From NCBI GenBank assembly GCA_017450695.1, contig JAFSTA010000021.1, positions 1-48,833 of the forward strand: a stretch of 48,833 nucleotides of DNA. The letters run 5' to 3'. Positions within the stretch are counted from its first letter, which is position 1. Every line of letters starts with the position of its first letter. Shown piece by piece: positions 408 through 18,506 of the stretch. The position numbers and the translations under genes were made by a program. Source of the DNA: Kiritimatiellia bacterium (lineage in GTDB: Bacteria > Verrucomicrobiota > Kiritimatiellia > RFP12 > UBA1067). The notes beneath the pieces were generated by a model. The model worked only from the letters and a program-made list of their open reading frames with translations, ran no database searches and was not told the origin of the DNA.

Positions 408-446
408 TAGCATTGTCTTTTGTATGTGAGGAAAAGGAGCAGGTCT

Positions 447-3400
447 ATGGATACAGGAAATGGCAAGCTGGACATTGGTCAGTTCTTGGTGTCATGTCGG
501 GCGGGTATCGCGTGCGCACTCGTTTTGACATGTGTTTCTCCGCTGGCGTTGCTGGCGGACGGTGAATGGATCGCTGGGAGCGGCGGGAACTGGGAGACGC
601 CTGCGAACTGGCTCGACGATCTCGTCGCCGCGTCCGGCACGGCGTACTTCACCAATGCTATCGCGGTCAATCCGGAAATCCGGATCAACAACTCCTATGC
701 GCTCGACGCGATCCTGCTCTATCCTCCGGCTGGTCGCACGTTCAACATCGATGCCACCTATCCGGTTGGTTCCTCCGACCAGTATTCATTCACCCCGTCG
801 GGTGACGTTTTTTCGGCCGGTGTCGCCGCGAACGGGAGCCGAGTCGAATGGAACGTGCCGATCGCCGGAAACAAACCCATTAAAATCTACTGGGGAGGTG
901 GATTTTTTCTCCGTTGCCCCTGGATCGGTACGGGTACCATCACGAGGCAAAGCGGAACGCTGGAAGTGGATCATCGCTTCACGATCGCGACGCAGGACGG
1001 CACGGTGTCGAGCAACCTGCTTGCCAGCCGCGCCATGAACCTGAACGGCGGCGCGAACCTGATTCTCGGCGGGCGTTTCCCCAAGCGCAAGGGGGAGGGC
1101 TACTTCGTCCTGACGCCCGGCTCACCCATTGCCGAGCTGGTGCCGACCAATTCCACCACCCGCAGCACGGCCACCGCCGGACAGCTCGTCACGGCAGATG
1201 GGTTGCCCGAAGGAACGCGCGTCGCGCGTGTATTCTCCTCCGCCGCCGGAAAGATCGCATTGACCAAGCTGCCGCTCGACACCGTGACGGAGGTGACGAC
1301 GCAACTCCTGACTTTTGCCGCCGCGCCGCGCTGGGACGTAGTTCAGGATTTCGACTTGCTGACCGTCAGCAACGGGCAGTGTGCCGTTACGCTCTACCCC
1401 TTCCTCTACGGCGCCGGCAACAACCAAGAGCCGTCCGGCACCAATACCGTCACCCTGAATGTCGGGAAAATCATCGGAAACGGGAACCTCAACGTGAAAC
1501 TCGACACGACCTACCACGGCTCGGACGGAACGCTCGCAGTCGATGACCTCTCCAGTTTCAGCAAAGACCTGATCCTGAATTCGACCGCTCGTCTCACGCT
1601 GAAGAAATTGACGGACGAGTCCAACATACCCCCCCCCGTTGGCGAACCCGCGCTCTGGATGGACGCCAGCGCGGCTGGTACGGTGACGGCGGACGCCAAC
1701 GGTCATGTCACCTCTTGGACGGATGTGCGCGGCTCGTCTTACGCCGAGGCGACACCCTGGCTGGAGAGTCCGACGGTGATGCCGAACGAGCTGAACGGGC
1801 GTCCGGTCATCGATTTCGGTACGGTCGGTTCGCGACAGGCATTGCAGTGGAACCGGGAAATCACAGGAATCAAAGCGGTGTTCCTCGTGCTGGGTTCGCA
1901 GGAAACGGGCGGATGCCTGCTCGGCGCCATGCCCGGCTGCACAACCTCGTACCTGCGCGGATTCAACCCGATTGACGCGGTTGCGAATAATACGGCAAAT
2001 GCCACCACCTACCGTCTGCACAAGGCGAACGGGTTAGTCCCAGTTAATCCGAGCGGCACGTATCGAGTCGCCATCAACGGAAGCCCGGTCGAACTTGGAG
2101 GATCCGGAATGTCGGGTGGATACGATGTCTATACGGTCTCTCTGCCCAACCTGAACTACAAGGCATCCGCCTTCGCCTTCGATGCGGGGAATGACGCCGA
2201 CGGAGGACGCCTCTCCGGCGGGCAGCGGTTGGCGGAAGTGCTGGTTTATACCAACTCGCTGACGTTCGCGCAATGCGTCGAGGTCGAAAACTACCTGCGG
2301 AAAAAGTGGATGGATATCGATGCCGAAGGTCGCGGACGCGCTCGCGTGAACAGCCTGGCTGTTAATGATACGCCTATCATCGAAACGCGGGACGGTTCAC
2401 CCATCCGTATCGGAAAGATGACCGGCACGGGAAACCTGACGGTCGAGACGAACAACGATGTGTCCGTGGAACTGATCGCGACGAATCTCTCGACAACCCT
2501 GCGCGACGGCGCGACGCTACGCGTCAACGCGCGGCGTGTTCCGAGCGTTCCCGCACTTGACGACGCCCTGCTCTGGCTGGACGCGGCGGATGCGGATTCC
2601 TTCACGCTGGATGGAAACGGCGACGTGCTGGAGTGGAAGAACCGTGTACCGAACGCGATTGAATCGGTAACGGCCGGTCCTGGTTCGGGGAGCGTGACGC
2701 CGACGCGTCCGCAACGCATCCAGGACGCGAACGGGCGTTGGCTGGTGGACTTCGGCAGCATCGGGAACGGATGCGCCTTGCGTTGCGCGAGCAACCTGTG
2801 GGCACGCACCCTTTTCATGGTCTGGATTCAGAAGGATCACGGGTGTCAGCCTTTCGGGAACATGAAGCAAGGATACACCACGACAACCCCCGGATTCAAG
2901 GGGAACACATTCCGAGGATCCCAGTTCCTGCGGCATAACGGAACCACGATGGGAAGCGCCATTGTCACGAGTTGGTCTGGCTCGAACGAGAGGAACGGAA
3001 GCTGGTACAGGAACGGTTCTCTGATCGAAAACGTGACGCTTGTGTCGATGCCCAAAAACCAACTCATTCTGAACTCCGGCGTGATGCAAGGAGGCGACCG
3101 CGTCTCCGCCGTCGGCGGATATAACTATGACGACAAGAATGCGGGTAACTGGGTGTGTTCCGGCGGTTTTCAGCTGGCTGAGATGATCCTTTACGGAACA
3201 ACGCTGGATGACACGGCGCGGCGTGACGTGGAGGCATATCTGCAACGGAAGTGGTTCGGCACGATTCCAGACGGCTATGCCGACGGCGCACTCACGCTCT
3301 CCAGCCTGACGGTCGATGGCAACGTCTCCGTAGAGAACACGGGGAACGCCCCGCTCACGGTCGAAAGCGTGAACGGTACCGGTACACTCAGTGTCACGGG

Positions 3401-4859
3401 CGAGGGTGGATTCATCTACGATAAAAAGGCTGCGACGGTGGTTCTCACCGGTGGAAGCGACGGTGTCTGCCTGTTCCCGGCAGAAGCACCCACTGCTGGC
3501 GAAAGTCCGATTCTCCATATCGATGCCACAAACCGAAACGCGATCACATTCTACAAGAGTACTTACACGCAATATTACACGGACCTCGCGCAGGGCATCC
3601 GGATCGGATCGGCGGCAGGTGAACAGTCCTGGCTTCCGATTTACCGTACCGGCGCAGATGGATGTAACGGCAAGGCGATTATCGACTTCGATATTCGTTC
3701 CCAAGGCAACGGTCGTGACTGCCGTTCCTATCGTTGGGATCCCCCGCTGACCAACATCCGTACTGTCTTCTGGATGTTCCGCGATCATCCGACACGCGGG
3801 GGCGGCTTCCTGTTGGGACTGACCAACGGAACCGATTTCCTGCGCGGCAGCTTTGGGACGTTACTGAATGCTTCGCCGCTCTTCGATGACAATGCAGCCG
3901 ACTACGTGAAGGCTGGCTCACTGCACGTGGACGGAATCTCCGTGCCGTACAACCACGTGCCCGAAGCGAATTGGCAGGTGCTGTCACTGGTGACGACAGG
4001 GAACGGGACCGCCAACATGATCGCAGCGGACCGCGACAACAAGAATAACTGGGGCGGACTCCAGCTCGGCGAACTGCTCGTTTACTCCCGCGCAATGGAT
4101 GACGTGGAAAGGATAAACACGGAAGCGTATCTGATGGACAAGTGGCTCGGGAAGCGCCATCCCGAACTCTACCGTGAAAACAGCGGCTGGTTCATCCATG
4201 CCGCAGGTCAGACCGTCACAAACACGGCTGGCGTCGCACACGGAAATATCGCCGGACTCCAAGGGAACGGCACGGTGTTTTTCCGCAACGCGAACGCGAG
4301 CGTGTTGGGCGATGTCCGAAACTTCGCCGGCACGGCGCGTCTTACCGGGAACAGCGTCGTGACGCTCGACAGTTCCGCCTACGCCGACTCCACATGGATC
4401 GTGGAGGAAGGCAGCGTACTGGACCTCGACGGCAAGACGGTGACACTCGGCGGCATCGGCGGCGGCGGTACGGTGAGTAACGGGAACCTGGTGGTGTCGA
4501 ACCTCATTATCGGCGCGACGGACGCACGTGCCGACCTGACGGTGATGGGAAACCTGACTCTGGCGGCAAACGCACAGGTGTCGGTACTCTCGCCCGAACG
4601 GTACGCGAGCTGTGTTCATGTGCAAGGCAAACTGTCTCTGACGGACGGCGAGGTCTCGGTACAGCTTTCGACGCCAATACCCTTCCCTGCGCACGCGATT
4701 CTGAGCTATGGGTCGCTGGCAGCGGAAACGCCGATGGATCAATGGCCGTGCGAATACAACCTTCCGACGGTTGGCGGTTACACCACGACTGTTCGTTCCG
4801 TCCTCGGCGCATATATGCTGGACGGCAGCTCGGCAGGAACACGAATCATGATCCGGTAA
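447..4859 (+). CDS. Giant secreted LamG-repeat surface protein
   Basis: The product has 1470 residues. The ATG at 447 follows AAGGAG with a 7-base gap; an upstream in-frame TTG at 420 lacks such a site. A long signal peptide ends near LALLA|DGEW. Three modules of about 220 residues follow (roughly 401-622, 706-937 and 1021-1232). Each opens with a P/D-A-L-L-W-(L/M)DA-type strand and closes with 'LAE(V/M)LVY' and a 'V(E)AYL…KW' helix, as in LamG/concanavalin-like domains of PVC surface proteins. Between and after them are Gly/Thr/Asn-rich strands ('GNLTV', 'GTVSNGNLVV', 'DLTVMGNLTLA') typical of beta-helical, autotransporter-associated repeats. No beta-barrel, LPXTG or sorting tail is recognisable, so the anchoring mode is unknown. 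It probably binds carbohydrate at the cell surface and is followed by a sialidase-family gene. Confidence 0.85.
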   Translation: MDTGNGKLDIGQFLVSCRAGIACALVLTCVSPLALLADGEWIAGSGGNWETPANWLDDLVAASGTAYFTNAIAVNPEIRINNSYALDAILLYPPAGRTFNIDATYPVGSSDQYSFTPSGDVFSAGVAANGSRVEWNVPIAGNKPIKIYWGGGFFLRCPWIGTGTITRQSGTLEVDHRFTIATQDGTVSSNLLASRAMNLNGGANLILGGRFPKRKGEGYFVLTPGSPIAELVPTNSTTRSTATAGQLVTADGLPEGTRVARVFSSAAGKIALTKLPLDTVTEVTTQLLTFAAAPRWDVVQDFDLLTVSNGQCAVTLYPFLYGAGNNQEPSGTNTVTLNVGKIIGNGNLNVKLDTTYHGSDGTLAVDDLSSFSKDLILNSTARLTLKKLTDESNIPPPVGEPALWMDASAAGTVTADANGHVTSWTDVRGSSYAEATPWLESPTVMPNELNGRPVIDFGTVGSRQALQWNREITGIKAVFLVLGSQETGGCLLGAMPGCTTSYLRGFNPIDAVANNTANATTYRLHKANGLVPVNPSGTYRVAINGSPVELGGSGMSGGYDVYTVSLPNLNYKASAFAFDAGNDADGGRLSGGQRLAEVLVYTNSLTFAQCVEVENYLRKKWMDIDAEGRGRARVNSLAVNDTPIIETRDGSPIRIGKMTGTGNLTVETNNDVSVELIATNLSTTLRDGATLRVNARRVPSVPALDDALLWLDAADADSFTLDGNGDVLEWKNRVPNAIESVTAGPGSGSVTPTRPQRIQDANGRWLVDFGSIGNGCALRCASNLWARTLFMVWIQKDHGCQPFGNMKQGYTTTTPGFKGNTFRGSQFLRHNGTTMGSAIVTSWSGSNERNGSWYRNGSLIENVTLVSMPKNQLILNSGVMQGGDRVSAVGGYNYDDKNAGNWVCSGGFQLAEMILYGTTLDDTARRDVEAYLQRKWFGTIPDGYADGALTLSSLTVDGNVSVENTGNAPLTVESVNGTGTLSVTGEGGFIYDKKAATVVLTGGSDGVCLFPAEAPTAGESPILHIDATNRNAITFYKSTYTQYYTDLAQGIRIGSAAGEQSWLPIYRTGADGCNGKAIIDFDIRSQGNGRDCRSYRWDPPLTNIRTVFWMFRDHPTRGGGFLLGLTNGTDFLRGSFGTLLNASPLFDDNAADYVKAGSLHVDGISVPYNHVPEANWQVLSLVTTGNGTANMIAADRDNKNNWGGLQLGELLVYSRAMDDVERINTEAYLMDKWLGKRHPELYRENSGWFIHAAGQTVTNTAGVAHGNIAGLQGNGTVFFRNANASVLGDVRNFAGTARLTGNSVVTLDSSAYADSTWIVEEGSVLDLDGKTVTLGGIGGGGTVSNGNLVVSNLIIGATDARADLTVMGNLTLAANAQVSVLSPERYASCVHVQGKLSLTDGEVSVQLSTPIPFPAHAILSYGSLAAETPMDQWPCEYNLPTVGGYTTTVRSVLGAYMLDGSSAGTRIMIR

Positions 4860-4860
4860 G

Positions 4861-4898
4861 AATCGAAAGCGGCCGAGAGCAATCAACGGCTTTCGATT
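4861..4898 (+). other. Intercistronic hairpin between the LamG gene and the sialidase
   Basis: A perfect 10-bp inverted repeat (4861-4870 pairing with 4889-4898, 18-base loop) begins one base after the stop codon of the LamG gene. No T-run follows, so it is not a classical terminator. A role in transcript processing or stability between the two co-oriented genes is an inference. Confidence 0.5.
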
Positions 4899-4929
4899 GC
4901 CATCGAAAACGACGAAAGGTAATGCGAAG

Positions 4930-6642
4930 ATGAGAAAAGCGATTGCATTTGGTTTGGTATTGTGTACCCTGGTCTGCCGAGCGGAAACAGGCTCGTTGTC
5001 AATCCTGCCGGAACAGTGGACGTTGTTGACTCCCACCGCGAAGGTGACGACAGACGGGACCTTGCTGCTAGACGGCATGAATGCGCCGACCTACGCATTC
5101 TACAATGCGGCATCGTATGGCGATGTCTCGCTGGAGGCCCGGTATTCCGTCGCGAAGACCGATGGCGTGATGGCGGTCGGTTTCGTGATCGCTTCGACAG
5201 ACTCGGAGTCGTTCCTGCGCGTGCATTACGACCGCCGCAGCGCGATCCTCTACCGGAACACGGAGGGCGGCGCGTTCCAGGAGATCAAGCGCGTCGGGAA
5301 CAAGCCGCAGGAGCCGGCCAAATGGTACACCGCCAAGCTGATCCGAAAGGGAAAGACGCTGGAGGTGTTTTTCAACGGCGCGAAACTCTATGACGCGGAG
5401 GTACCCGACACCCCCGGTCGCGTCGGTTTCTACGCCAGCCAGACGATCGGTACAATCCGCGACATCCGCCTCGACGGAACGCGCATAGCACTCGCCGCAC
5501 CATGGAGAAACATGGAAGAAGGGCGCATCCACGGTGCGCCGAAGGTGCAGGCGCGCGCGGAGATTATCTGGACGCGAGCCATCTGCAAAGAACCGGATCG
5601 GTACATCGGCTGGCCGACGGTCTGTCGTCGTAAGAACGGGGAGCTGCTTGCCGTTTTCTCCGGCGACCGCCAGTACCATGTCTGCCCGTGGGGTAAAGTC
5701 CAGCTCGTGCGTAGCATGGACAACGGCGAGACATGGACCAAGCCCGTAACGATCTGCAACACGGTGAATGACGACCGCGACGCGGGGATTACGGAATTGC
5801 AGAACGGGGACCTGCTCGTGACGTGGTTCAGCTCGCTCTGTTACGCGGGAAATTTCCCGGCAAATGCGGTTTTCGCCAAACAGGACAGCGAGCGGTACTT
5901 CTGGCAGCGTCACTTTGAAAAGTTGCCACGCGCACTGGTGAAGGAACAGCTTGGTTATTTCACGCGCCGTTCGACCGATGGCGGTAAGACGTGGGAACCA
6001 CCCGTGCGGACTACCGGATCGGCGAACCACGGCGGCATCCAGTTGAAGGACGGACGCCTGCTGATGATCGGCCGTCGCTGGAACAGCCAAGGCAATTTCC
6101 TGCCGGAGGATCCCGCCGGACAGAAGACGAAGCACGAGCTGACGGTCGATGAATCGACCGACAACGGGCGCAGCTGGCACCAGATTGCGAGCATCCACCC
6201 GGAAGAGGACATCTCCAAATTCCACGAACCGCACCTGGTGGAAGCGGCGGACGGCATGATCGTCGCGCAGTTCCGTTGCCACATCGACTTCAACCTGCGC
6301 CAGTCCGAAAGCAAGGATGGCGGCAAGACGTGGACCCCCGTTCATCGTCTGGATATCCACGGCCATCCGCCGCACCTGATCCGTCTCGCGGACAACAAAC
6401 TGCTCACCGTGTACGGCATCCGCGACGGGGCGTTCGGCGAATACGCCTGTATCAGCGACGACAACGGCAAGACCTGGGATGTGAAAAACCAGATCAAACT
6501 GGCGGGACACTGGTGCGGAGATCTCGGCTATCCCGCCTCCGCCCAGCTGTCCGACGGCACAATCATCACCGTCTATTACCAGTCGGAAAAGAACGGCGAA
6601 AAGCCCTGCCTCATGGCCACCAAGTGGCGCGTAACCCGTTAG
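4930..6642 (+). CDS. Secreted sialidase-family (BNR/Asp-box) protein
   Basis: The product has 570 residues. The start is the ATG at 4930, giving a clean signal peptide (MRKAIAFGLVLCTLVCRA|E). An earlier in-frame start at 4897 would bury it behind a charged extension. Residues about 25-190 form a LamG/DUF1080-like beta-sandwich. From about 205 a six-bladed propeller follows with five Asp boxes: SMDNGETW (~262), STDGGKTW (~348), STDNGRSW (~409), SKDGGKTW (~461) and SDDNGKTW (~508). This is the architecture of exo-sialidases (GH33) and of related BNR hydrolases. The Arg triad and Tyr/Glu nucleophile cannot be assigned with confidence, so 'sialidase-like' is safer than sialidase. It lies 70 bp after the LamG surface protein on the same strand, suggesting joint use in glycan degradation. 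Confidence 0.85.
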   Translation: MRKAIAFGLVLCTLVCRAETGSLSILPEQWTLLTPTAKVTTDGTLLLDGMNAPTYAFYNAASYGDVSLEARYSVAKTDGVMAVGFVIASTDSESFLRVHYDRRSAILYRNTEGGAFQEIKRVGNKPQEPAKWYTAKLIRKGKTLEVFFNGAKLYDAEVPDTPGRVGFYASQTIGTIRDIRLDGTRIALAAPWRNMEEGRIHGAPKVQARAEIIWTRAICKEPDRYIGWPTVCRRKNGELLAVFSGDRQYHVCPWGKVQLVRSMDNGETWTKPVTICNTVNDDRDAGITELQNGDLLVTWFSSLCYAGNFPANAVFAKQDSERYFWQRHFEKLPRALVKEQLGYFTRRSTDGGKTWEPPVRTTGSANHGGIQLKDGRLLMIGRRWNSQGNFLPEDPAGQKTKHELTVDESTDNGRSWHQIASIHPEEDISKFHEPHLVEAADGMIVAQFRCHIDFNLRQSESKDGGKTWTPVHRLDIHGHPPHLIRLADNKLLTVYGIRDGAFGEYACISDDNGKTWDVKNQIKLAGHWCGDLGYPASAQLSDGTIITVYYQSEKNGEKPCLMATKWRVTR

Positions 6643-9829: not shown

Positions 9830-9898
9830 AGATTTTTCTTGCGTAGATGACTTCATGTGTGTAATAATCATTCCGTTTTTGCAAAATGGAGAATGGGA

Positions 9899-11338
9899 AT
9901 GTTTATTGGACGGACCGAATATCTTGACGACCTCTGTTCGCTTTGGAAGAAGCGGGCGCCTTCGTTTGTTGCCTGTCGGGGGCGACGGAGAATCGGCAAA
10001 AGCACGTTATTTCGTGAATTCGCCAAGCGTACCGCGCAGGATTATATTGAGATTGAAGGATTGCCGCCCAGCAAGTTCATGGACAATCAGCAACAGCTTG
10101 ACGGCTTCATGGAAGCGCTGGCAAGCCAGACTGGGATGCCCTGCGGAAAGGTTGACAACTGGTATGCGGCTTTTCACTGGCTAGACAGGGCGATCGATGA
10201 CAGGAAACGGACGGTTGTTCTTCTTGATGAGATATCTTGGATGGGTTCATTCGACAAGAATTTTCCGGGGCGATTGCGTTCCGCTTGGGAAACGTTCTTT
10301 CATCGCCACGAAAAACTGATTCTCGTCATTTGCGGAAGCGCGTCTGCCTGGATCAAGGAGAACATTCTCGACAACACGGGTTTTGCGGGACGCCTTTCGC
10401 GTGACTATGTCTTGACTGAGCTTCCTCTTTCCGATTGTATTCGTTTCTGGGGGAAGGCTGCGGAGCGAATTGAAACGCGAGAGATCCTGGACGTGTTGTC
10501 CGTAACCGGCGGAGTGCCTCGGTATCTTGAAGAAGTCGATCCGGGACTATCGGCTGATGAGAACATCAGACGTCTTTGCTTCTTGGAGGAAGGCGTACTG
10601 TATAAGGATTTCGATGCCATGTTTGCCGAGGTTTTCGGTGGAGATACGGTGGAGCGGCGTCGAATATTGGAATGTCTGACCGATGGTCCACGCAGCGCTG
10701 TAGAGGTTGCAGAACAACTCAAGATCGAGAATAACGGACACCTTTCCGCCCAGCTTCGGTCATTGGAAGAGGCGGGGTTGCTGTCTTCGGATGTCGGCAA
10801 GAATCCCGCGACCGGCAAGGACGCACGTATCTCCAAATATAGGATGCGGGACAACTATGTCCGCTTCTATCTCCGCTACATTGCTCCGCACCAGACTGAG
10901 ATCAAAGTCGGATCGTTTCGCTTCTCCTCTGTTTCCATGCTTCCCGGCTGGAACGCGATTCTAGGTTTGCAGTTCGAAAATCTTGTTGTCAACAACCTGC
11001 CTGCACTCGTTCCATTACTCGGTATCGGTTCAGGCGTCATTCTCTCGGCGGCCCCCTACAGAAATATGCGCAAGGCGGCGGATGGCGGTACAAGGGGACT
11101 CCAAATCGATCTCCTCATTCAAACGGCGCGTACGGCATACGTGGTCGAGATCAAGCGCAAGCGGTATATCGACGAGAGTGTGGAAAACGAAGTCGAACAT
11201 AAAGTGAGGCTCCTCCCGCTACGAAAGGGGGTTTCTGCCCGACCGGTACTCGTCTATGACGGAGAACTCGATCCGGTGGTCTTGGGAAACGGTTATTTCG
11301 ATGCGGTGATACCCGCCAGAAGGCTTCTAGGACTTTGA
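9899..11338 (+). CDS. AAA ATPase with DUF234-like C-terminal domain
   Basis: The product has 479 residues. I chose the ATG at 9899 (MFIGRTEYL) because GGAG lies 7 bases upstream and family members begin MFIGR-x-x-E-L. Walker A is CRGRRRIGKST (~21-31) and Walker B is VVLLDEISWM (~108). A sensor-like 'LVICGSASAWI' follows at ~140. Residues ~260-330 form a winged-helix-like segment ('GPRSAVEVAEQL…LRSLEEAGLL'). The C-terminal ~110 residues ('LQFENLV', 'GLQIDLLIQT…YVVEIKRK') match the DUF234 domain, whose D…ExK pattern is PD-(D/E)XK nuclease-like. These STAND-like ATPases are widespread in gut bacteria and archaea. Their function is not established, and a mobile or defence role is inferred. Two hairpins precede it. 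Confidence 0.88.
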   Translation: MFIGRTEYLDDLCSLWKKRAPSFVACRGRRRIGKSTLFREFAKRTAQDYIEIEGLPPSKFMDNQQQLDGFMEALASQTGMPCGKVDNWYAAFHWLDRAIDDRKRTVVLLDEISWMGSFDKNFPGRLRSAWETFFHRHEKLILVICGSASAWIKENILDNTGFAGRLSRDYVLTELPLSDCIRFWGKAAERIETREILDVLSVTGGVPRYLEEVDPGLSADENIRRLCFLEEGVLYKDFDAMFAEVFGGDTVERRRILECLTDGPRSAVEVAEQLKIENNGHLSAQLRSLEEAGLLSSDVGKNPATGKDARISKYRMRDNYVRFYLRYIAPHQTEIKVGSFRFSSVSMLPGWNAILGLQFENLVVNNLPALVPLLGIGSGVILSAAPYRNMRKAADGGTRGLQIDLLIQTARTAYVVEIKRKRYIDESVENEVEHKVRLLPLRKGVSARPVLVYDGELDPVVLGNGYFDAVIPARRLLGL

Positions 11339-11640: not shown

Positions 11641-12657
11641 TCAGCTGGAGGAGGCTTTGCCGCCATGTTGCTTGGAGCAGAGCAGGTAGAGGAAGAAGGG
11701 ACCGCCGCAGAGGGAAGTAATAACTCCAACCGGGATTTCGTATGGTGGCACGACACAACGGGAGAGGGTGTCGCAGACGACCAAGAAGACGCCGCCCACA
11801 CAAGCGGCCCAGGGAATGAGAGTGCGGTGGTTCGCGCCGAATAACCGCCGGACGGCATGCGGCACGATTAATCCGACGAACCCGATGACTCCGGAGAGCG
11901 CGACGGCCGCCGCCGAGGCGAGCGTGGCAGCTCCCAGTATCAGCGGTACTTCCACGCGGAGCCTCACCCCGGCGTGATACGCCCGATCCTTTCCCAGCAC
12001 CAACACGTTGAGCGTACGCGCTTCCAAAAAGAGCGAGAGAATCGAGAGCGCGATCAGGAAACCTGCCGTACCCAGCAATCGCCAGGATGTGCTTTGCAGG
12101 TTTCCCAGCAACCACCAGGTGACACCGTGTACCGCACGCGTCGGCGCAAAGGTCAACAGAAGAAGCAACAGACTGGAGACGATTGAACCGACCACGACAC
12201 CGGTCAGGATCAACACGGTCGGGCGATACTCCCCTCCTACGCGATGCGCCAAAAGCCAGACCCACACCAGCGTGAGCGAGGCGGCGACGAACGCGCCGAG
12301 CGGCAGCACGAAGGAATGAAAGGCGGCGAGTCCAAGAACGATGACAAGCGCCGCGCCCAAGGCGCCGCCACTGCTGACACCAAGCACATACGGTTCCGCC
12401 AGCGGGTTTCGCAGTACCGCCTGCAACGCCGTTCCCGAAGCCGCCAGCCCCGCCCCCACGAAGAACCCTGTCACGAGACGACTCAACCGCAACTCCATCA
12501 AGGCGGCACCTGACACCGTTTTCCAATCGGGCAATCCGAATCCCGCCGGACCGCACGACAGGCAAAGGAATAGTACCGCCAAGATGGCGGCGATGGCGGC
12601 TAACGTCGTCAACGAGGCGTGATGCGGCTGCCGGGAAGCGGGAGTCGGATGCATCAC
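11641..12657 (-). CDS. FecCD/BtuC-type ABC transporter permease, orphan
   Basis: A 338-residue integral membrane protein with about nine to ten hydrophobic segments. It carries hallmarks of iron-siderophore/cobalamin permeases: 'ELRLSRLVTGFFVGAGLAAS', 'LQAVLRNPLAEPYVLGVSSG' near residues 57-95 and 'SGVIGFVGLIVPHAVRRL' near 260-276 (the ATPase coupling region), then 'GGPFFLYLL' at the end. Such permeases work as a dimer with an ATPase and a binding protein; neither gene is in the window. The start is GTG at 12657, overlapping the TGA of the helicase gene by four bases (GTGA), with an ATG one codon later. This implies translational coupling to a helicase-nuclease, an odd pairing. Confidence 0.9.
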   Translation of the reverse strand: MMHPTPASRQPHHASLTTLAAIAAILAVLFLCLSCGPAGFGLPDWKTVSGAALMELRLSRLVTGFFVGAGLAASGTALQAVLRNPLAEPYVLGVSSGGALGAALVIVLGLAAFHSFVLPLGAFVAASLTLVWVWLLAHRVGGEYRPTVLILTGVVVGSIVSSLLLLLLTFAPTRAVHGVTWWLLGNLQSTSWRLLGTAGFLIALSILSLFLEARTLNVLVLGKDRAYHAGVRLRVEVPLILGAATLASAAAVALSGVIGFVGLIVPHAVRRLFGANHRTLIPWAACVGGVFLVVCDTLSRCVVPPYEIPVGVITSLCGGPFFLYLLCSKQHGGKASSS

Positions 12658-15600
12658 ACCAATCCTTTTCCAGCTTCCACAAAAACGGGACGCTGGGTGG
12701 CGGTGACACGGGCGAATCCGAACCGCTTGGCGGTTTCCAGATACAGCGTCTCCTCCGGCACGCTCTGCAACGACCGCAGGATAGCGCGTTCGGCATTGGC
12801 GATCTCCTGCGCAGGGATTTCATCCAGCGCACGTTTCGTCTTTTTGTCCTCAGTCGGAACGCGGTAAATGGTATAGCTCTCGGGCGTCACGCCGTCGGGC
12901 CAGAAGACCAGCTGACGTTCCTCGCCCGTTCCCTGCGAGGTCGTGCGGATGTCTTTCGGGATGGAGCGCAGCAGGACATCTTCCATGTTCGGCTTCAGCC
13001 GCTTGAAATCCCACTCCTGCATGATCCGCTTGCGCAGGAGCGAGAAGACAATCGGACCTTCCGCCGCAACGATCCGCCGAATCTGCTTGTCGAGAATCGG
13101 AGGCGCGTCAAGCAGGTTGAACTTGTCCTGCTTGCGCGAATAGTCTTCCGGCTTAGCCATGACATAAGGTCGCACAGACTCATCCGCGACAGCCGGCTGC
13201 GGTTGCGGGGCGACTGTCTCCGGACGGGGCATCTTGTAGGTCGGCATCCCGCCGGAGGGAGCGGGCTTCCCTTCCACGGCCGCTTCGACCTCGGCGAGCA
13301 ACTTGGCTTTCGCACGATCGGCATCGAACCACCATTCGGCGGACCAGACGCGGCACATTCTCCAGCCCAGCCCTTCCAGCACACTGCGACGCAACTTGTC
13401 GCGGTCGCGTTCGGAGCTCGCGTTCCGGTAGTAGTCGCCATCACATTCGATACCGATCGCGTACCGGTCAGGAGTGACGCGACTCATCACGCCGATGTCG
13501 ATCCGGTAACCGGAACAGCCGACCTGTTTCTCGACCTGATAGCCCTGGCAGCGAAGGAACTCAGCAACCTCATCCTCCAGTCGCGAATCGCTCTCCTGCT
13601 TCGTTCCGGCGGCGATGCCGAGATTCGACACGCCATGCTCCGCGTAGGAAAGGAAGTTCTTGAGGTGCATCGCCCCCGTCGCCTGGGTCCGTCCGAGATC
13701 GATGTCCACCGCGTGGATCGAGGCGAAGACCACGACCTGTTCCTTCGCGCGGGTGATCGCCACGTTCAAGCGACGCTCACCGCCCACGCGGTTCAGGGGA
13801 CCGAAGTTCATCGCGAACTTTCCGCTCTGGTCTTTCGCATACCCGCAGGAGAAAAAGATCGCGTCTCGTTCGTCCCCCTGTACGTTTTCGAGGTTCTTCA
13901 CGAAGAACGGCTCTTCCAGATCGTCGCTGAAGAACTTCTCGATTTCCGGATGCTTCTCCCGTTCCTCGTCCATCAGGTCTTCGATGAGTCCCTGCTGCGC
14001 CTCACTGAAGGTGACAACGCCCGTCGATTTCTTGGCGAAGGCGGGATCCAGCAACCGCGCCATCACCGCCCGCACGACTGCCTCCGCCTCCACACGGTTC
14101 GTCCGGGTCTTGCACCGGTCATAGACGCCGTCTGGAACGAACTGGAAGCTGACGCCCAGACGATCATTCTGCTTTTGGGAAGACGGGAATGTGAAGAGGC
14201 GGTTCCCGTAGTAGTACCGGTTGCTGAAGGCGATCAGCGACTCGTGGCGGCTACGGTAATGCCATTGCAGATAGGTCTCCGAAATTCCCGAAGCCTTACA
14301 CTCGTCGAGAATACTTTCGAGTTCCTCGATGTCCACATCGGAAACAGGTTCGTCGCCCGCGTCCTGCTGGCGCTGGAAGAAGGTGGTCGGCGGCAACTGC
14401 TTCGGATCGCCGACAATCACGCACTGCTTTCCGCGCGCGATCACGCCGATCGCGTCCGGCACGGTAATCTGCGAAGCCTCGTCGAAGACCACCACGTCAA
14501 ACGGTTCGTGCTGCGGAGGCAGGTACTGCGCGACGGAAAGCGGGCTCATCAGGAGGCACGGCTTCAGGTTCGGCAACAGGGTGGGAATGGACTCCAGCAA
14601 GGTGCGAACGGGTTTGTGGCGGGATTTCTTCTCGCACTCGCGTTTCAGCACGCCCAGTTCGGTTCCCGCCGGACAGGTCCCGAAACGTGCCGACGGCAGA
14701 CGGGCGGAGAGTTTCGCGACGATCATCTGTTGCGAGAGCGCGGCGAACTGGTCGTCCAGCTGCCAGAACCGTTTGATCTGCTCGTCCTGCACGTTTCCGA
14801 GGAAATCGCGCAAAGCGGAACGTTCCGCGATCACCTTCTCGATCACTTTCTCGCAGTAGCGTTTGCGGACGGCCTCTTCGGTCCAGTCCAGTTCCAGATC
14901 GCCGCGCTCGATCGCGTCCGTCACGGGTTGCAGCCCCAGCGAGACGGCGTTCTCACGCTCTTTGTTCCACAAAAGCCAGCGACGAAGTTCCGACTGGTTT
15001 TCGAGAACCGTTCCCGTCATCTTCACCAGTTCGCGAATCGTCCGCGCCGTCTCCTTCGGCGCATCGGCGGGAGTCCCCTGCCCTGCGGTCGCTTCGCGTC
15101 CGCCACCCAGCGTGGCGAAAAATCCGTCGCGTTTCTCGCGGAAGGAATCGACGGCCTGCAGCACGGCATCGCACACCGATCTGTCGGTGCGCGACGCCAA
15201 GACGGAGGTCAGTCCCGTCGGCTTGCCGCCCAAGGCCTTCGCGGCCTCCCATGCGGTTTTCGCGCTGGTGACAAGCGTCTCCAGCGACCGCCAGACCTGG
15301 TCGTCCTTCGGCACGGCGGTGAAGGTGTATTCGGGTACGCCGAAGGAGGTCCCCTTCACGATGGCAGCGGCGTCCTGGTAACTCTCAAACCGGTCGATCC
15401 ACTTGTTGATCGGACGGGCATCAAACGTCGCCCGTCCCGGATTGTGCAGACAACTGATCTTCAGCTCTTTCATCAGCGACCGTCTGCGGAAGAAGCGGAA
15501 GATCGCGTTGGAGATCTCAATCTTGCGCCACCGCTGACGCAACTCGGCGATGTTCAGTTTCTCCACCGCGTCCCAATCGATGTTCGGAGTCTCGGCGCGG

Positions 15601-18506
15601 AAACGGGCCGTCTCCTGCCCAGCGCGCAACAGCTTCTCCGCAGCTGCAGCCTTCGACTCCCAGTTCGCCCACAGGTCGGCGGGAATCTCCGGCGCCTCCC
15701 TGCAGGTCGCAGCGAGTTCACGGAAGCGCGTGATCTGGGTTTCGTCGAGCGCGTCGAAATCCCCGATTTCAAGAAGTGAAGCGAAGTCGCGGGAAGCTTG
15801 TTTCAGCGACTCCAGCGCATACGCGAATTCCTTTGCGCTCGCGACCGCCGCCGATTCCCATGCGGCATTCCACTCGGTCACCCGGCAGAACGACAGATCG
15901 TCGAAAAGCTGCGGCGGCAACTCCTCGCCGCAGACGCGCAGCTTGCGCGCGCATTCCAGCAATCGATCCAGTTCTTCCGTCGTGAAACGCAATGCGGTAA
16001 ATGCTCCGACATGGCGAATCTCGTGTTCGTCGCCCGCATGGGTGAAGAGATAGGAGAAAACGTGGTAGGGCGTCATTCCGCAGCTGTCGGGCTGATGCAG
16101 CGCCTGAACGTAGGTCGTCAAGGCGGTGCGCGCCTCGCCCAGTTCGCGGGCGATGGATTCCCACTCCGCCGGTTCCTTTGTTCCGGAGAAGGAGAGCGTT
16201 TCCTGGAACTGCGCCAACACCTCCGACTTGCCCGCCTTGTTCGAATGAAGCTCCAGGCAGAACGGCCCCAGCCCGATACGGCGCAGGCGGCGCTGCACGA
16301 CTTCCAGCGCGGCGCGTTTCTCGGCGCAGAAGAGAACCGTCTTGCCGGCGGCGAGACAGGCGGCGATGAGATTGGTGATCGTCTGCGATTTGCCGGAACC
16401 GGGAGGCCCGTGCAGGACAAAGCTCTTGCCGTTGACGGCGGAGAGGACGGCGGCCAGCTGCGAGGAATCCGCGCTCATCGGGCAGAACAGCTTGTCGATC
16501 GGAATGCAGGTGTCCACCTCTTCCGGCTTCACCATCACGGCGCCGTCGTCGAACGATTCCTTGTTTTCGATCAGGTGGTTGACGACGGGGCTTTTCCGCA
16601 AATCGTCCAGACGCCGCCCCAGGTCGTCCCACATGATGAACTTGCTGAACGAGAAGCGACCGAGCCAAACGCCATCCACGACTTCCCATCCCTGCATCGT
16701 CTTGACGGCTTCTTTCACGATCGTCAGAATTTTCGCGACATCCAGCCCGCTCTCGTCCTCCGGCGGCGGATTCAGCCCCTCGACCTGCAACCCGAAATCG
16801 TGCTTCATCATCTCCAGCAGCGTGATGTTGACGATTGTGTCGTCGTCGTTGCGCGAGAGGGAGTACCCCTCCTGAACCGTCTTTCGGGAAAGCGTGACCG
16901 GTATCAGTAACAAAGGGGCCAGATAGGTCGGCGAGCTGGGCATCGTGCCGTCCTTCCAGCTCAGGAATCCGACAGCGAGGAAGAGCGTGTTGACGCCCCC
17001 CTCCTCCAGATCCGATTTCGAGGTTCGGAACAGTTCCTTAAGCCGATTGTCCAGATCCTTCTGTCCCAAATAGGAGAAGAGCCGGTACTTGGAAATCTCC
17101 TCTTTCGCAAACGCCAGCTCCAGCGCGTTGGAATCGAACCGCTTTCCTTCCGTGCGCGGGTCGTTCTGGGAGAACTGCGTAGGACGCGAGTGGAGCGTGA
17201 AGGTCTTCCCTGCCGCAAACTCGTCCTCGATACCGGGCATGTCGCAACAGATGAGGGGGATCGCCTGTTTGGAGTCCTTGAAATTGAGCAGCCGGTTTCG
17301 ACGCGAGAGATCCAGCAGCTTAGACCGCCATTTGCGGACACGCGGCGGCAACTGCTCCTCTTCCGGTTTCGCGGGTTCTTCAGAAGCGGAGTCATCGGAA
17401 TCCATCTTCGGCAACGGCTCGTCGTCGGTGTCGAGGCGTTTCGCCGTGCCGCCGGGCGTGACGGCATCCGAATCCTGACGCTCCGATGAAAGCGGACGGA
17501 TTCCGAATTTGCGGCACTGCTCCACGTCCAGCGCGTATTCGAACTTCTCGTCCTCCTGCAACTTCGTCTGCGCGGTCTCCAGCGCGGAGGAGAACCTGCC
17601 GCCGTTGACGACGGCGAGTGTCGTCTCGATGGCGCAGATTTCGTTCAGGTCGATCCGCTTGCGGATCGCCTGGACGTCCTCCGTCCGGGTGTCCGGGAAC
17701 TGCGCGTCCAGCAGGTGGCAACCGACGAAGGCGTGTCCCTTGACGAGGAAGACGATCGGATGGAATCCGCACGCCTCCATCAGCGAGGCGAAGAGGAGCG
17801 TACTGTCCAGACAGGTCGCGAATTTCTTCTCCGTGATTTCCTTCGCGGTACGGATCCGCTGGCCCGACTCCCCGAAACTGGGAGGCGGTTCCATGTAGTG
17901 AATCCCCTGTTCCAGCACGGTGTCGTAGAGGCATTTCAGAACCTGCATCACCGCGTCGCGGCTTCCGCTCTGATACCCGCTGAGCTTGGCTTCAGGATAA
18001 CGATCCTGCAACAGCTCCTGAATACGCTGGAGCAAAGGCTTGAGAGCGGAATCGTTCGGCATCACGAACGCGGCGAGCAGTTCGGGCATGAACTCCGAAC
18101 CGAACCAGTCGTCGTGCGGACAAATCTCGACGGGAACGGACTTCTTCTCGGAGACCGTTTCCTCCGTTCCGTCATCCTGCATCCATACCCCCGAAACCTC
18201 AATCGTGATGCTGCCGCGAATGCGCTCGGCGATCTTGGACAAGTAACTGTACTGATAGACCAATTGCAGGGACGAGAAATCGACCGGCACGGAGGGCGGC
18301 AGCGAGTCGGCGGGCAGCTCGGCGGGCGGGAAAAACTCGGGATCCGACGTGACGCGGCAGACGACCTTCCGGAGCGGACGTTCCCCGCTCCAAGTCACGC
18401 GCAGACTGCGGATCAGCTGAATCGCATTCTGCTGTAACACCAGCCCCGCTTTGCCCAACAGCGTCTCTTCAATTTCCAGTTGCCTCTTCCCCGCATTCGT
18501 TTCCAT
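12654..18506 (-). CDS. DUF4011 / SF1 helicase / Vsr-like nuclease / DUF3320 protein (HheA-like defence candidate)
   Basis: A 1950-residue multidomain protein; the ATG follows AAGGAG by 8 bases. The N-terminal part contains a transglutaminase-like segment with C232 ('ATCLDST'), H258 ('KGHAFVG') and D267. DUF4011 begins near 385 ('WRSKLLDLSRRNRLLNF'). The SF1 helicase core has Walker A HGPPGSGKSQT (~695), DEASQ (~1340), GDPKQLPPT (~1365), then HYRSRHESL, VQGDERDAI and NVAITRAKEQ. A Vsr/REase_MTES_1575-like nuclease follows (~1650-1740: 'RLEDEVAEFL', 'YRIDIGV', 'GIECDG'), then a DUF3320 region (~1795-1850). This DUF4011-helicase-Vsr-DUF3320 order matches the single-protein anti-phage system that I recall as Hhe. 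A role against foreign DNA is inferred from architecture. A FecCD permease gene is coupled to its 3' end. Confidence 0.9.
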   Translation of the reverse strand: METNAGKRQLEIEETLLGKAGLVLQQNAIQLIRSLRVTWSGERPLRKVVCRVTSDPEFFPPAELPADSLPPSVPVDFSSLQLVYQYSYLSKIAERIRGSITIEVSGVWMQDDGTEETVSEKKSVPVEICPHDDWFGSEFMPELLAAFVMPNDSALKPLLQRIQELLQDRYPEAKLSGYQSGSRDAVMQVLKCLYDTVLEQGIHYMEPPPSFGESGQRIRTAKEITEKKFATCLDSTLLFASLMEACGFHPIVFLVKGHAFVGCHLLDAQFPDTRTEDVQAIRKRIDLNEICAIETTLAVVNGGRFSSALETAQTKLQEDEKFEYALDVEQCRKFGIRPLSSERQDSDAVTPGGTAKRLDTDDEPLPKMDSDDSASEEPAKPEEEQLPPRVRKWRSKLLDLSRRNRLLNFKDSKQAIPLICCDMPGIEDEFAAGKTFTLHSRPTQFSQNDPRTEGKRFDSNALELAFAKEEISKYRLFSYLGQKDLDNRLKELFRTSKSDLEEGGVNTLFLAVGFLSWKDGTMPSSPTYLAPLLLIPVTLSRKTVQEGYSLSRNDDDTIVNITLLEMMKHDFGLQVEGLNPPPEDESGLDVAKILTIVKEAVKTMQGWEVVDGVWLGRFSFSKFIMWDDLGRRLDDLRKSPVVNHLIENKESFDDGAVMVKPEEVDTCIPIDKLFCPMSADSSQLAAVLSAVNGKSFVLHGPPGSGKSQTITNLIAACLAAGKTVLFCAEKRAALEVVQRRLRRIGLGPFCLELHSNKAGKSEVLAQFQETLSFSGTKEPAEWESIARELGEARTALTTYVQALHQPDSCGMTPYHVFSYLFTHAGDEHEIRHVGAFTALRFTTEELDRLLECARKLRVCGEELPPQLFDDLSFCRVTEWNAAWESAAVASAKEFAYALESLKQASRDFASLLEIGDFDALDETQITRFRELAATCREAPEIPADLWANWESKAAAAEKLLRAGQETARFRAETPNIDWDAVEKLNIAELRQRWRKIEISNAIFRFFRRRSLMKELKISCLHNPGRATFDARPINKWIDRFESYQDAAAIVKGTSFGVPEYTFTAVPKDDQVWRSLETLVTSAKTAWEAAKALGGKPTGLTSVLASRTDRSVCDAVLQAVDSFREKRDGFFATLGGGREATAGQGTPADAPKETARTIRELVKMTGTVLENQSELRRWLLWNKERENAVSLGLQPVTDAIERGDLELDWTEEAVRKRYCEKVIEKVIAERSALRDFLGNVQDEQIKRFWQLDDQFAALSQQMIVAKLSARLPSARFGTCPAGTELGVLKRECEKKSRHKPVRTLLESIPTLLPNLKPCLLMSPLSVAQYLPPQHEPFDVVVFDEASQITVPDAIGVIARGKQCVIVGDPKQLPPTTFFQRQQDAGDEPVSDVDIEELESILDECKASGISETYLQWHYRSRHESLIAFSNRYYYGNRLFTFPSSQKQNDRLGVSFQFVPDGVYDRCKTRTNRVEAEAVVRAVMARLLDPAFAKKSTGVVTFSEAQQGLIEDLMDEEREKHPEIEKFFSDDLEEPFFVKNLENVQGDERDAIFFSCGYAKDQSGKFAMNFGPLNRVGGERRLNVAITRAKEQVVVFASIHAVDIDLGRTQATGAMHLKNFLSYAEHGVSNLGIAAGTKQESDSRLEDEVAEFLRCQGYQVEKQVGCSGYRIDIGVMSRVTPDRYAIGIECDGDYYRNASSERDRDKLRRSVLEGLGWRMCRVWSAEWWFDADRAKAKLLAEVEAAVEGKPAPSGGMPTYKMPRPETVAPQPQPAVADESVRPYVMAKPEDYSRKQDKFNLLDAPPILDKQIRRIVAAEGPIVFSLLRKRIMQEWDFKRLKPNMEDVLLRSIPKDIRTTSQGTGEERQLVFWPDGVTPESYTIYRVPTEDKKTKRALDEIPAQEIANAERAILRSLQSVPEETLYLETAKRFGFARVTATQRPVFVEAGKGLV

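Follow-up and report, generated by a model that had tools for sequence, protein, structure and literature searches.

Giant proteins in which a transglutaminase (TGase)-like peptidase is combined with a superfamily 1 (SF1) helicase, a Vsr nuclease and the winged helix-turn-helix (wHTH) domain DUF3320, together with HEPN, were described in 2013 by Anantharaman and colleagues, and the fusion was seen as suggesting a further line of defence through protein cleavage (PMC3710099). The ProA protein analysed here has in common with these giants of the MTES_1575 group the run from TGase domain to wHTH in a single chain; the giants add a HEPN RNase domain (PMC3710099), whereas a Pfam search detected none in this ProA, HEPN domains being fast to diverge. 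A preliminary description of the locus had taken the TGase-like segment for an addition to a known helicase–nuclease system, but both the architecture and the idea of cleavage are already contained in that earlier work. What is new here is a correction of the probable acidic residue of the active site (to E294), a clade in which the site has degenerated, and the finding that the whole front module is repeatedly and cleanly lost. A literature search found no experiment on the TGase-like domain of ProA.

Family assignment and domain layout

The gene lies in a window of 48,833 nucleotides, the whole stretch of DNA that was analysed, from a rumen bacterium. It occupies positions 12654 to 18506 of the minus strand as a single open reading frame of 1950 codons with an ATG start (1950 aa), and its codon-usage score exceeds that of every other frame in the window, while the plus strand of the same interval is interrupted by stops; the preliminary description had placed the frame exactly, without naming a strand. 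The best curated model for the protein is NCBIfam NF058533 (anti-phage protein ProA, ‘anti-phage’ being the name given by NCBIfam), which scores 1954.5 bits against a cut-off of 1500, 454 bits above it, and aligns residues 24–1933 with positions 4–1903 of its 1903, the N-terminal segment included. No architectural difference separates the protein from this model.

The protein had previously been called HheA-like, that is, a Hhe protein which has acquired an extra N-terminal domain. Hhe does share with ProA the order DUF4011, SF1 helicase and Vsr-like nuclease, and the Hhe models match the helicase–nuclease part. However, the Hhe model NF042953 fails on this protein, scoring 839 bits where its cut-off asks for 2000, and position 4 of the model aligns to about residue 392, at the start of DUF4011, leaving 390 residues to precede it. 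In PADLOC the best match is PDC-S37, at 1279 bits over residues 385–1939 compared with 583 bits for Hhe, although the PDC-S37 model spans DUF4011 onward only and is without the TGase module present in ProA. Since the N-terminal segment is inside the ProA model and absent from that of Hhe, the protein is not Hhe with an added segment; membership of Hhe was rejected, and an acquired domain on a Hhe protein is in our estimation very improbable. Residues 1–395 are some 26–35% identical to plasmid-borne homologues of Pseudomonadota and Bacteroidota. The system named Prometheus in DefenseFinder may be the same family as ProA. On the best reading of these sequence comparisons, the protein would be an ordinary member of an already known single-protein anti-phage system, to which the present analysis adds modest refinements.

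Behind the N-terminal segment the domain order that had been proposed is borne out, with every domain above its Pfam cut-off. DUF4011 (residues 396–567; 16806..17321, minus strand; PF13195, E 1.1e-43) is followed by a Upf1/Sen1-like SF1 helicase core (residues ~680–1596; 13719..16469, minus; AAA_11 and AAA_12), by a Vsr-like nuclease of the REase_MTES_1575 type (residues 1644–1739; 13290..13577, minus; PF18741, E 6.7e-31) and by DUF3320 (residues 1801–1837; 12996..13106, minus; PF11784, E 2.4e-6), which is a winged helix (PMC3710099). The helicase motifs GPPGSGKS (Walker A, at 700), DEASQ (at 1342), GDPKQLPP and VAITRA are all intact, the closest solved structures of this part being the Sen1, SMUBP-2 and UPF1 helicases, and the nuclease residues D1670, D1689 and D1701 are conserved.

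Predicted fold and active site of the front module

Residues 1–395 of this protein have no Pfam match, and a search of PDB sequences with the N-terminal profile returned nothing at E 1. Transglut_core is, however, matched by nine of 31 aligned family members (best 1.5e-4) and the TGase-like DUF553 by ten of the 31, and one family member (G006) passes Pfam's own cut-off with 23.4 bits. AlphaFold2 modelling of residues 1–395 (eight sequences, pLDDT 71) predicts a β-sandwich at residues 10–130 (18117..18479, minus) and then an α/β domain at residues 132–345 (17472..18113, minus). The sandwich resembles an Ig domain or the C-terminal barrel of TGases, with VIA giving Z of about 10 to the β-barrel domains of protein 4.2, TG2 and TG3. 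Because the sandwich dominated the Foldseek matches of the whole model (top E 3.8e-3), the second domain was modelled alone; the best of five models of residues 132–345 reached pLDDT 83 and pTM 0.85, the remaining four standing at 50–61 and the alignments resting on seven to eight sequences. The VIA matches of this model belong mostly to the TGase superfamily and are headed by yeast PNGase (Z 10.3 over 163 residues at 4.4 Å), with BDI_1141 (9.1), the TGase 4xz7 (8.9), TglA (8.8), TG2 (8.7), XPC (8.6), PeiP (8.6) and LapG (8.3) also among them, as well as TG3 and arylamine N-acetyltransferases. A profile alignment to 20 TGase domains from related genomes (Prob 65%, E 8e-6) pairs C232 with the TGase Cys and H258 with the His. 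The TGase-like context that had been noticed upstream of DUF4011 thus holds when predicted structures are compared, and on these models residues 132–345 have the fold of the TGase superfamily.

In the predicted structure C232, the putative nucleophile (17811..17813, minus), opens a helix of residues 232–245, while H258, the predicted catalytic His (17733..17735, minus), at the start of strand 258–264, and E294 lie on the strands that follow, which is the order of a TGase site. Both C232 and H258 had been named in the preliminary description as members of a C-H-D triad, and both are found where it put them and are near-invariant (Cys in 39 and His in 40 of 43 homologues). Its third member did not survive comparison. 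Although D267 (17706..17708, minus) is present at its position, Asp occurs there in just 17 of the 43 homologues, and in the 39 homologues whose Cys, His and Glu are all kept the position holds D, E, P, N, Q, K, G or A, so that it is for D267 only that loss in homologues, proposed as a test of all three residues, counts against the assignment. D267 was rejected on this ground. Because Glu is kept at position 294 in 40 of 43 homologues and Asp at 267 is not, the third catalytic residue is very probably E294 (17625..17627, minus). The E294 column was left unpaired in the profile alignment to TGases; the residue nevertheless stands at the expected strand end, behind strand 290–293, as Glu and not the usual Asp, and its motif ETT would stand where TGases have DPT. 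Q216 (17859..17861, minus), invariant among members that retain the triad, is a possible oxyanion-hole residue.

The ProA module is predicted to have its fold, and its Cys-His order, in common with PNGase and with the bacterial TGase-fold peptidases PeiP, LapG and TglA. It differs from them in the Glu in place of Asp, in an insert of 20–25 residues that separates the strand of the His from that of the acidic residue, and in being fused to a DNA machine.

Maintenance and loss of the module

Comparison with the nearest relative, L022 from a sheep-rumen Kiritimatiellae metagenome-assembled genome, gives dN/dS values of 0.087 for the TGase domain, 0.085 for DUF4011 and 0.124 for the sandwich, against 0.021 for the C-terminal part of the helicase and 0.023 for the nuclease. 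The TGase domain is thus more variable than helicase and nuclease, with their values of about 0.02, but a ratio of 0.087 indicates that it is maintained and under purifying selection. The module is missing or degenerate in several relatives, as might be expected if the front segment had lost its function here and were decaying; yet with this ratio to the nearest relative, no lesions and the Cys, His and Glu intact, we regard decay here as extremely improbable.

The N-terminal segment is not universal, a point on which a check had been proposed. Among 53 DUF4011–helicase–Vsr proteins the sandwich and the TGase domain are present together in 39 and both absent in 14, one of which (L012) has the module and is merely cut by the edge of its locus, leaving 13 of the 53 truly without it. 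On a quick tree of the helicase–nuclease core, presence and absence change at least eight times, five of these changes being forced by well-supported branches. The clearest case is a pair from one genus, L073 (G151:C68) and L026 (G153:C11), whose loci are syntenic on both sides (87% and 90.5% identity) and in which ~1.2 kb carrying both sandwich and TGase domain is missing in frame from G151 relative to G153. What remains in G151 is an open frame of 1617 codons with its motifs intact and a dN/dS of 0.115 to G153, and because this frame stays intact after the deletion, the helicase–nuclease appears to be useful without the module. A split system, with the TGase domain supplied by a neighbouring gene, was considered and rejected, no gene for such a module being found within the 7–16 kb fetched around each TGase-less homologue. 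The front module therefore comes and goes as a unit, the front end having been dropped repeatedly while the DNA machine is kept, and an accessory arm fits better than an obligatory gate.

A different kind of loss is seen in four homologues of a single genus (L044, L045, L049 and L050), which form one branch of the tree with support 85. Sandwich and TGase domain are still recognisable in this clade, but Q216 and C232 are gone from all four and H258 and E294 from three of the four.

Relatives of the TGase domain are also found outside ProA. One is a 759-aa protein of genome G120 (L080) that has sandwich and TGase domain as well as a CHAT match, which is weak (E 0.005) and falls short of the cut-off; the protein lies in a cluster (L080:1258–11907, G120:C14) together with caspase-domain, DUF5675/lysozyme-like, clostripain-family, YdjC-like and subtilase proteins. 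Another gene (L085:7182–8951, G051:C57) places a ProA-type TGase domain before an SF1-like AAA domain and is truncated by the end of its contig.

Possible roles of the module and genomic surroundings

The reading that we somewhat favour is that ProA acts on its own as an anti-phage restriction factor, with a cysteine peptidase or amidase as an accessory front end that adds a second activity, directed at protein. To judge by its domain content, ProA would engage invading DNA through DUF4011 and the winged helix of DUF3320, translocate on it by means of the Upf1-like SF1 helicase and cut it with the Vsr-like nuclease; the front module, with its β-sandwich and TGase fold and with Q216, C232, H258 and E294 as its putative site, would serve as the accessory enzyme, and a phage or host protein would most likely be cleaved once the DNA machine is engaged. 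Because the module is dispensable, we lean towards its being an effector or a phage-specific adjunct. A more specific proposal, which we hold only tentatively, is that a swappable, active Cys-His-Glu peptidase couples surveillance of DNA by the helicase–nuclease to the cleavage of a specific protein, and that the arm is turned on or off in different lineages as the module is gained or lost in its entirety. The correction to E294 and the natural in-frame losses make a published guess, that of a protease arm in a DNA-cutting defence protein, simply testable; if it is true, DNA cutting and proteolysis are combined in one polypeptide.

The TGase fold need not imply catalysis. In XPC and Rad4, chains of which match the module with Z 8.0–8.6, the fold can act as a DNA-binding scaffold, and a module that recognises DNA or protein in the same manner, with a Cys-His-Glu site that is not catalytic, would suit a protein whose remainder is a DNA machine and would agree with the persistence of a recognisable module in the clade that has lost its site. 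Conservation speaks against such a scaffold: it is exactly the Cys, His and Glu that are near-invariant in 43 diverse members, with Q216 in those that retain the site, a pattern unexpected for a scaffold, and we consider a purely binding role unlikely. The module might also be catalytic without being a protease, modifying a target protein as an acyltransferase or transglutaminase or as an amidase, and its best structural matches do include PNGase, which is an amidase, TG2 and TG3, and the arylamine N-acetyltransferases. Against this, the neighbours of the module in G120 are proteases of three other families, which by association only favours a peptidase over a transferase, and prokaryotic TGase-fold proteins that belong to conflict systems are as a rule regarded as peptidases (PMC3710099, PMC7159879); we therefore judge a non-proteolytic enzyme to be rather improbable as well.

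ProA is widespread: of 289 genomes sampled from the phylum, 28 exceed the cut-off for it, and 435 plasmid records have a tblastn match to this protein. Six relatives were found on viral contigs; one further scan of viral contigs gave none, and the Klebsiella homologue, used as a blastn query against genomes of E. coli, had no match there. Downstream of the ProA gene, and overlapping it, lies a gene at 11641–12654 on the minus strand; its ATG and the stop codon of ProA overlap in the sequence TGATG. This gene was considered as a partner and rejected as such, since it encodes a FecCD transport permease and not a defence protein; the nearest relative keeps this arrangement, but next to two further ProA genes from the genus it was not found. 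The ProA gene is also adjoined by a plus-strand gene (9857–11338) for an ATPase_2 and HTH protein that matches the PADLOC candidate defence family PDC-S27 (252 bits). Elsewhere in the window, a plus-strand open reading frame of 1479 aa at 420–4859 scores well as coding sequence but matches nothing in Pfam, and is followed at 4897–6642 by a gene for a BNR-repeat/3-keto-disaccharide hydrolase-like protein.
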